DNA of 44,725 nucleotides, taken from positions 1-44,725 of the forward strand of contig DAHVOJ010000011.1 in the NCBI GenBank assembly GCA_027318865.1, given 5' to 3'. The position numbers and the translations under genes were made by a program. Below the pieces are notes generated by a model that worked only from the letters and a program-made list of their open reading frames with translations, did no database searches and was not told the origin of the DNA. Every line of letters starts with the position of its first letter. Position 1 is the stretch's first letter. This DNA comes from a bacterium. GTDB lineage: Bacteria; SZUA-79; Acidulodesulfobacterales; Acidulodesulfobacteraceae. Below are positions 2,405 to 5,348 of this stretch, one piece after another.

Positions 2405-2878
2405 TTATAACAATTTTTCAAAAACTTCTTCCGGCGTCATTAATGCTGCAAATAAATTGAGTTTACCGGCATCAAAATGGGCATGATGTTTCAAAATAAC
2501 AACCGCTTTTGCTTTTGATGATTTACCGACTTCAATAAACTTTAAAAAACGACAGCCGTCTAACTTTAAACTTTCTGCAATTTTTATTTTCTCGGCGGTA
2601 ACAAATTTGCCTTTTTCTTTTAAAAATTTTAACAGGCAGTCAATACTCTTTTTTTCTAAACCCAATTTATTTAATTTATCGAGATAATCTAAATAAATTC
2701 TATCGTCTACAGCAATATCGAATCTTTCGTCGAATAAATAATCTATAAGCCTTCCGCAGCAACTTTCCGCGTTAACGAGTCCTTCTATAAATACGTCGGA
2801 TTCAATCACGAGCGTAAGGCTATGACTGTTTTCTTTTATTTTCTTATAAAAGAAAGGTAAATCATTCTTTAGCATCAC
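2405..2878 (-). CDS. PIN-domain toxin of a type II toxin-antitoxin pair
   Basis: A 157-aa protein with a PIN-like fold pattern: an N-terminal VIESDVFIEGL strand-helix (24-34) where PIN nucleases have a DTNVF-like motif, a central helical part, a KLDGCRFLKF segment matching the second acidic site, and a C-terminal MTPEEVFEKLL tail typical of this toxin group. PIN toxins are Mg-dependent RNases. The first catalytic Asp appears as Glu26, and the usual GD of the third site looks like KH (near LKHHAHF), so activity may be weakened. It overlaps the upstream Phd/YefM antitoxin gene by 17 nt, the standard coupling of such modules. The context supports the call more than the motif does. Confidence 0.68.
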   Translation of the reverse strand: MMLKNDLPFFYKKIKENSHSLTLVIESDVFIEGLVNAESCCGRLIDYLFDERFDIAVDDRIYLDYLDKLNKLGLEKKSIDCLLKFLKEKGKFVTAEKIKIAESLKLDGCRFLKFIEVGKSSKAKAVVILKHHAHFDAGKLNLFAALMTPEEVFEKLL

Positions 2879-3846: not shown

Positions 3847-4563
3847 TTAGGAAATTGCTTTATTCTGTAGTTCCGTAATTTTTGCAACGGAGGTTTTTGA
3901 AAGTTCGTAAAGTTTTCTAAGGATATCGAATTCTATCGGGGTTTTTTCTGCGCATCCCTGAATTTCTATAATTTTTTGGGAACCGGTAAGTATGAAATTA
4001 AAATCCAATTCTGCCGTCGAATCTTCGGAATAATCGAGATCGACCAAAATTTCTCCGTTTACTATACCGATGCTTATAGCGGCGACGGAATCGTAAAACG
4101 GCATTTTTTCTATTTTTTCCTGTTTAATAATCTTTAAAAATGCAAGATAAGCGGCGACATAAGCCCCCGTTATAGAAGCCGTTCTCGTGCCGCCGTCGGC
4201 GTTTATCACGTCGCAGTCTATAAGAATCGTTATTCCGGGGAAATAGGAAAAATTAATTACCGACCTTAGCGACCTGCCGATTAACCTCTGTATCTCCTGC
4301 GCCCTTCCGTTTACTTTTCCTTTCGACGAATCCCTCGGCATCCTGCTTTGCGCAGACCTCGGAAGCATTGAATATTCGGCGGTAAGCCACCCTTCTTGCT
4401 TGTCTTTCAAAAACGGCGGTACTTTATAATCGACGGAAGCGGTACATATTACCTTAGTATCGCCTGCTTCGACAAGACACGAACCCTCGGCGTATTTCAT
4501 ATAGCCCGGGATAATATTAACAGGTCTCATTTCGTCTGCCGCTCTATTATTATTCCTAATCAT
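3847..4563 (-). CDS. rph: ribonuclease PH
   Basis: A 238-aa phosphate-dependent 3'-5' exoribonuclease that trims tRNA 3' ends, normal length for the family. Visible signatures: RAADEMRPV near the start (residues 7-15), the Arg-rich RNA/phosphate region RAQEIQRLIGRSLR (87-100), GGTRTASITGAYVA (124-137) that binds phosphate, and the acidic DLDYSEDSTAELDFN block carrying catalytic carboxylates. It forms a hexameric ring. It is the last gene of the nusB-tusA-rph segment; its ATG lies 7 nt after the stop of the UGA-containing tusA frame, whose end supplies the AAAGGG ribosome site. Co-transcription is therefore very likely. Confidence 0.96.
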   Translation of the reverse strand: MIRNNNRAADEMRPVNIIPGYMKYAEGSCLVEAGDTKVICTASVDYKVPPFLKDKQEGWLTAEYSMLPRSAQSRMPRDSSKGKVNGRAQEIQRLIGRSLRSVINFSYFPGITILIDCDVINADGGTRTASITGAYVAAYLAFLKIIKQEKIEKMPFYDSVAAISIGIVNGEILVDLDYSEDSTAELDFNFILTGSQKIIEIQGCAEKTPIEFDILRKLYELSKTSVAKITELQNKAIS

Positions 4564-4570
4564 TTTCCCT

Positions 4571-4831
4571 TTATTTTTTCCAATCTTTATTTTTGATAAA
4601 AAATATGTAAAGGTCTTTTAATCTGGCCGCGTTTAGCAATTGCACGCTTATTAAAGAGCATAAAGCGGGTATATCGTTTAACAGAGAATCTTTGTCCGAT
4701 ATAACCGTTAAAACGTCATCCTGCTTCAAAGTTTTAAGTTTATGGACGACCGCCCATACCGGAGGGCCTCAGCAAAGCCCCCTGATGTCGAGTACGTTAA
4801 CGCCGTAATTTAATAGTTGTTTGTTCTCCAT
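4571..4831 (-). CDS. TusA-family sulfur carrier, probable selenoprotein (UGA = Sec21)
   Basis: Reading the UGA at 4769-4771 as selenocysteine gives an 86-aa protein. Residues 14-24 read LDIRGLCUGPP, aligning with the TusA/SirA signature LDxRGLxCPxP so that Sec21 replaces the catalytic Cys, with Cys20 beside it. Downstream LKTLKQDDVLTVISD (32-46), NDIP (52-55) and YIFFIKNK near the end match the rest of the TusA fold, including the hallmark DIP. An AAGGAG ribosome site lies 6 nt before the ATG. The reading frame stays open on both sides of the UGA and ends 7 nt before rph. A SECIS-like hairpin follows the UGA (4741-4758). TusA proteins pass persulfide sulfur; a Sec variant might carry sulfur or selenium or act as a redox protein. 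The alternative is a nonsense mutation, but the conserved 3' part and hairpin argue against it. Confidence 0.8.
4741..4758 (-). promoter_or_regulatory. bacterial SECIS-like hairpin after the tusA UGA
   Basis: On the coding strand UAUGGGC (4758-4752) pairs with GUCCAUA (4747-4741), seven pairs including one G-U, closing a GGUC loop (4751-4748). The loop starts 17 nt after the UGA, and its leading GG-U resembles the SelB-binding loop of E. coli fdhF (GGUCU). Position, stem length and loop G all fit the usual rules for bacterial SECIS elements. Pairing was worked out by hand. Confidence 0.75.
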
Positions 4832-4886
4832 TTTTTACTCCTTCTTAGCTTTTGTTATTTTAAGTTTTTATCTGCCGGATTATAAC

Positions 4887-5348
4887 TTATTTAACCTTTA
4901 CCGCCGCATCTAAAATACCGTTAATAAAAGCCGGGGATTCGTCATTCCCGAATTTTTTCGCAATTTCTATCGCTTCATTCATAACGACGTTTCTTGGGGT
5001 TTCCGGAACAAATAAAATTTCATAAATAGAAAGCCTCAATAAATTTCTATCGACCCGCGACATTCTTTCGAGACTCCAATTTTTCGACACATTTTTTATA
5101 ATGCCGTCTATCTTATCCAAATTAAGTAAAGCGCCTCTAACGATAGAGGAAAAAAAAACGAATATCTGGGCAACGTCCTTCTTTTTGTTTAAATCTTCTT
5201 TCGTTTTTATGAATCCGTCTCTCATAAGACTTTCCGAAGCAAAATCATTATAAAATCTGTTTATTTTATAATCCATATTGCTTATATCCCCGTCTTCCTC
5301 GTATAAAAACTGCAATGCAAGTTCTCTTGCCTTTCTTCTTTTAGTCAT
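4887..5348 (-). CDS. nusB: transcription antitermination factor NusB
   Basis: A 153-aa all-helical RNA-binding protein that joins NusE (S10) on boxA RNA for rRNA antitermination. Seen: the basic N-terminus KRRKARELALQFLYE (residues 3-17) and the conserved C-terminal half with RMSRVDRNLLRLSIYEILF (about 95-113), PRNVVMNEAIEIAKKFG and FINGILDAAVK. Length is slightly above the usual 130-145 because of a longer loop at about 35-60. It sits directly after ribH, as in many proteobacteria, with the UGA-containing tusA gene following after 55 nt. Confidence 0.95.
   Translation of the reverse strand: MTKRRKARELALQFLYEEDGDISNMDYKINRFYNDFASESLMRDGFIKTKEDLNKKKDVAQIFVFFSSIVRGALLNLDKIDGIIKNVSKNWSLERMSRVDRNLLRLSIYEILFVPETPRNVVMNEAIEIAKKFGNDESPAFINGILDAAVKVK

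Follow-up and report, generated by a model that had tools for sequence, protein, structure and literature searches.

A predicted TusA-superfamily selenoprotein with a vicinal Cys-Sec pair in Ca. Acidulodesulfobacterales

Within a window of 44,725 nt, by which we mean the whole stretch of DNA that was analysed, the minus strand carries the gene string ribD-ribE-ribBA-ribH-nusB-[Sec-TusA]-rph, in which the bracketed gene is the subject of this report. A first-pass annotation had described an apparent gap of 324 nt between the upstream neighbour nusB (4887–5348, minus strand) and the downstream neighbour rph, which encodes RNase PH (3847–4563, minus strand); the gap is there, at 4564–4886, with a length of 323 nt. 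It contains, as that annotation had proposed, an 86-codon frame on the minus strand (4571–4831, Sec codon included), running from an ATG at 4831–4829 to a TAA at 4573–4571 that lies 7 nt before the start of rph, and the sequence offers a good ribosome-binding site, AAGGAG (4838–4843, minus strand), 6 nt 5′ of the ATG. Checked base for base, the frame has a sole interruption, a UGA at codon 21 (4769–4771, minus strand), and with this codon read as selenocysteine the translation is MENKQLLNYGVNVLDIRGLCUGPPVWAVVHKLKTLKQDDVLTVISDKDSLLNDIPALCSLISVQLLNAARLKDLYIFFIKNKDWKK*. Standard gene finding returned no intact frame here, in keeping with the earlier claim that gene callers overlook the locus. The order of the gene string is kept in the relatives examined, with rdgB next in one of them (G019). 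One genome (G020, L193) reads nusB-[Sec-TusA]-rdgB, rph having gone from between Sec-TusA and rdgB, and its Sec-TusA seems to start with TTG and has a hairpin stem that is paired throughout (CTGGC-GGTC-GCCAG). The gene is flanked by translation/RNA and riboflavin genes instead of sulfur genes, and these neighbours give no functional hint. Elsewhere in the window, an open frame of 157 codons (2405–2878, minus strand) has no Pfam match at E ≤ 1e-5.

With Cys written for Sec, the protein matches the Pfam TusA model (PF01206) at 37.8 bits (E = 1.8e-9; gathering cut-off 28.6), and a profile alignment places Sec21 on Cys19, the catalytic residue of E. coli TusA, which bears out the initial recognition of a TusA signature with U at the active Cys and Cys20 beside it. 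Against the NCBIfam TusA equivalog (NF001423) the score is 43.5 bits, below the curated cut-off of 78; the protein is a member of the TusA superfamily and not a TusA equivalog. Its AlphaFold model has the TusA fold (beta-alpha-beta-alpha-beta-beta; pLDDT 83.9), and the best PDB match of the model is E. coli TusA in the IscS-TusA complex (TMq 0.79). Fold and length are shared with TusA (1DCJ, 3LVJ), as are an active residue that precedes helix 1, the DIP loop and Cys58 (..DIPGFC.. in E. coli). Sec-TusA differs from TusA in having Sec for the catalytic Cys, a vicinal Cys20 (codon TGC, 4772–4774, minus strand; invariant within the sub-branch in our alignments) and UGPP for CPxP, such that, apart from the exchange of Cys for Sec, the first Pro is replaced by Gly while the second is kept.

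This active site is not confined to the Sec forms. The sub-branch as a whole has C-[U/C]-[G/S/A]-x-P as against x-C-P-x-P, with Cys-type cousins that read CCSVP, CCSAP or CCAQP, and further relatives have the canonical CPxP. In a tree that calls for caution, being built on few columns with long branches, the Sec and CC forms are set apart from the CPxP TusAs (support 97/84), whereas the Sec forms come together at only 89/49. The CC-type Cys homologues (L109–L111, L155) have C-C-[S/A]-x-P at the equivalent place and share the SDK and NDIP motifs and Cys58 with Sec-TusA. In genome G022, a CC-type Cys TusA lies beside another copy that has changed and whose active site is scrambled, DLCSSCCLGV (L111; 886–1143 and 1492–1722), and the pair is followed by an apparent TetR-type regulator. 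The host genome of the window has seven further TusA-domain loci.

That genome is a 1.46-Mb, 87%-complete assembly of 121 contigs. The named genomes closest to it are MAGs, Ca. Acididesulfobacter diazotrophicus AP1 and SZUA-79 among them, and it belongs to the acid-mine-drainage lineage Ca. Acidulodesulfobacterales (PMC6776010). Across a lineage set of 30 genomes (a phylum group comprising one family and six genera), Sec-TusA orthologues were found in 27, at 56–88% identity to the window protein, and none was found in the other three (completeness 81, 84 and 92%). Every one of the 27 has a single UGA in frame at the equivalent codon, with a sense codon there in 0/27, and none has a second in-frame stop, leaving intact a reading that had been staked on relatives free of a non-Cys sense codon and of further stops or frameshifts. 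An alternation of U and C at residue 21, which was also to be looked for, is absent from the orthologues, which all have UGA, but does appear among more distant homologues, which have Cys. Changes 3′ of the UGA fall mostly at third codon positions, and dN/dS past the UGA, where reliably computable, is ~0.05–0.17 against the window gene, which indicates strong purifying selection on this stretch. Conservation of the UGA settles that the observation is real and, together with coding kept beyond it, supports the identification as a selenoprotein.

One more gene with UGA at the codon-21 position occurs in a Nitrospirota genome (L097). We considered a mis-binned contig of Ca. Acidulodesulfobacterales, which is disfavoured by the different gene neighbourhood and by the presence of selA in the assigned genome; a genuine Nitrospirota occurrence is more likely, on a contig that is short and of low coverage. 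Two distant members of the Nitrospirota group (L184 in genome G082 and L185 in G063), which read LCUGDP and are 37% and 32% identical to the window protein, respectively, likewise have UGA at the active-site position. In both, Sec-TusA adjoins an apparent OmpR-type response regulator gene, with an overlap in L185. The latter (557–874, G063) also contains an in-frame insert reading about DENPPLDRRDACPTSRSGVSPDRFSG that is missing from its sister L184 and looks like a repeat inserted into coding sequence.

Beginning 10 nt past the UGA is the 7-bp hairpin that had been noted on first inspection, TATGGGC-GGTC-GTCCATA (4741–4758, minus strand; stem UAUGGGC/GUCCAUA, apical loop GGUC). The loop starts 17 nt past the UGA in all 28 close sequences (the 27 orthologues and L097), on a stem of 4–7 contiguous pairs. 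Across 24 distinct sequences, standard pairs fill 95.2% of the pair cells, and three pairs have double-sided changes; the covariation score was reached by 0/500 shuffles, and slid controls of the alignment were only 29–52% paired. Codons 6–8 past the UGA are GCG GTC GTC at silent sites in 28/28, in a window where GTC makes up 22% of Val codons and GCG 26% of Ala codons, and the two members with one amino-acid change within these codons both keep the pairing. In L184 and L185, the GGUC loop and the 17-nt spacing are kept on a wholly different 7-bp stem. The CC-type homologues, in contrast to Sec-TusA, have TGC or TGT at the active-site codon and no stem longer than 4 bp behind it.

Published criteria for bacterial SECIS elements are a loop of 3–9 nt, a stem of 4–16 bp, a G within the first two loop positions, a distance of 16–37 nt from the UGA and an MFE ≤ −7.5 kcal/mol (PMC13188914). 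With GGUC, 7 bp, a spacing of 17 and a consensus fold of −8.14 kcal/mol, the hairpin lies within all of these, and the SECIS prediction recommended by the first-pass annotation thus came out positive. Single-sequence folds prefer a competing pairing in many members, and support for the element therefore rests on its covariation. Nor is the hairpin significant by itself: a GG-loop hairpin of at least 7 bp at 16–37 nt lies behind just one of the 886 TGA triplets on both strands of the window, the UGA of codon 21, but shuffles lead one to expect ~1.1 such sites per window. What is significant is that the hairpin lands on this UGA, and not that it exists.

The host genome contains selB, with a score above the curated cut-off, and selD (G000:C37:894–1820, L123), which itself has a UGA (MTSAHGUGCKIGPEDL). 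SelD is a selenoprotein across the lineage, with UGA in 30/30 genomes and HGUGCK in the host. The selA gene is present in 29 of the 30 genomes and was not found in the 87%-complete host assembly; since it lies ~4 kb upstream of selD in relatives such as G015, and the host contig with selD begins only 893 nt upstream of that gene, the host selA is most likely in an assembly gap. A tRNA-Sec with the TCA (UCA) anticodon was found in 25 of 29 relatives. It was not found in the host assembly with Rfam or BLAST, the BLAST search having no positive control among the searched genomes, nor in G002, G007, G015 and G024, all of which have selA and a UGA-bearing selD; either an assembly gap or a divergent tRNA would account for these four. 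G015 is rated 100% complete, and a residual gap in the argument for Sec decoding therefore remains. Among the holders of other Sec-TusAs, selA is present in G061 and G063 and was not found in G082. Of the sel genes to be looked for, then, selB and selD turned up in the host, whereas selA and selC did not.

Codon 21 is almost certainly read as selenocysteine by way of SelB and tRNA-Sec, under the direction of the SECIS hairpin. The initial proposal of a selenoprotein stands on the invariant UGA, the Cys homologues, the covarying SECIS and the presence of selB and a Sec-type selD in the genome. It is highly likely that Sec-TusA is a TusA-superfamily selenoprotein; a selenium-based site for carrying sulfane sulfur, with Cys20 as the resolving residue, is proposed for it. 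Our confidence is high in the reality of the protein and moderate in its function. The role first suggested for it, that of a sulfur or redox carrier, is plausible, and a sulfur role would fit both the family and the physiology: related genomes have dsr genes and Dsr sulfur metabolism (PMC6776010), and an acidophile TusA is reported to react with tetrathionate (PMC4175335).

The chemistry that we favour, and to which we give an even chance, is one in which Sec21 accepts sulfane sulfur, Cys20 resolves and a thiol re-reduces the pair. At its position directly preceding helix 1, the site of the persulfide in TusA, Sec21 would take up the sulfane sulfur as Se-bound sulfur, the donor being a partner protein (a desulfurase, a rhodanese or one of DsrE type), polythionates or polysulfide. 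Attack by Cys20 would release the sulfur and leave a vicinal selenenylsulfide, which a cellular thiol or thioredoxin would then reduce. Expression is probably constitutive because the gene is embedded in the housekeeping rib-nusB-rph string. More tentatively, C-[C/U]-[G/S/A]-x-P may define an unrecognised sub-branch of TusA in which a single-thiol carrier has become a two-centre site, the vicinal Cys resolving Sec-bound sulfur via a strained selenenylsulfide.

With the first proline of the CPxP motif gone, sulfur transfer need not have been retained, and it is possible, though less likely, that Cys20-Sec21 in this selenoprotein instead does thiol-disulfide redox chemistry or binds metals or metalloids. 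Loss of that proline and presence of a vicinal Cys extend through the whole sub-branch, in Sec and Cys forms alike, the habitat is metal-rich, and CU-motif selenoproteins in a 2026 catalogue include CopZ-like, MerB-like and metal-binding families (PMC13188914). Against this, the TusA fold, the second Pro and the Cys58 common to E. coli TusA are all kept, and no metal or redox gene directly adjoins Sec-TusA in the lineage. We consider it unlikely that the protein is a carrier delivering selenium to SelD or to the synthesis of selenouridine, one whose own Sec would let it respond to the selenium supply. This idea draws on YedF, another TusA-domain protein, which is selD-linked and has a DsrE-like domain (PMC5322559); Sec-TusA shares a TusA-type domain and a selenium connection with these YedF/SirA-like selenium metabolism proteins (TIGR03527) and shows weak similarity to YedF models. 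Unlike YedF, however, it contains Sec itself and consists of a TusA domain only, 86 residues long, without the DsrE-like C-terminal domain, and in the genomes examined its gene lies between nusB and rph/rdgB rather than beside selA, selB or selD.

Alternatives to selenocysteine at the UGA fare far worse. Decoding as another residue, through a change of code or readthrough by a near-cognate tRNA, might be prompted by the missing host tRNA-Sec but is highly improbable: UGA ends 5 of the 18 window genes examined and the orthologues L018, L026 and L032, from which we conclude that it is not reassigned in the lineage, and the covarying hairpin, selB and Sec-type selD complete the grounds on which this explanation was rejected. 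A true stop, which would make the gene a pseudogene or the source of a regulatory leader peptide of 20 residues, would agree with the failure of standard gene finding to return an intact frame but is scarcely credible and was rejected, given that the part past the UGA keeps its protein sequence across 27 genomes, shows low dN/dS and contains no further stop.

The reading that we prefer is that of a putative selenium-based sulfur carrier. Bacterial Sec decoding and the placing of Sec at a reactive Cys site are already known; what is new is the TusA variant. Sec-TusA is very probably a real and apparently undescribed selenoprotein, with a vicinal Cys-Sec pair and Gly for the first Pro. Neither TusA, SirA nor PF01206 is among the 119 families of prokaryotic selenoproteins catalogued in May 2026 (PMC13188914), NCBIfam 20.0 has no model for Sec-TusA, and full-text searches of openly available literature found no description of it. 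Sec rhodanese-like and DsrE-like proteins (PMC13188914) resemble it as predicted bacterial selenoproteins of sulfur-transfer families with Sec at the reactive Cys, but belong to protein families other than TusA. Since it falls outside the models that NCBI now uses, the gene has probably been overlooked or broken into two throughout the genomes of this group.

With Sec-TusA, which comes from a lineage not yet cultivated, the known selenoproteins would come to include a family at the heart of sulfur trafficking, and selenium would stand in the exact place of the sulfur-carrying atom of TusA. Why selenium should be used for handling sulfur thereby becomes a question that can be tested on a protein of 86 residues. 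If the two-centre site is real, Sec-TusA would be a self-discharging sulfur carrier, and also a reductase, used by sulfur-cycling acidophiles.
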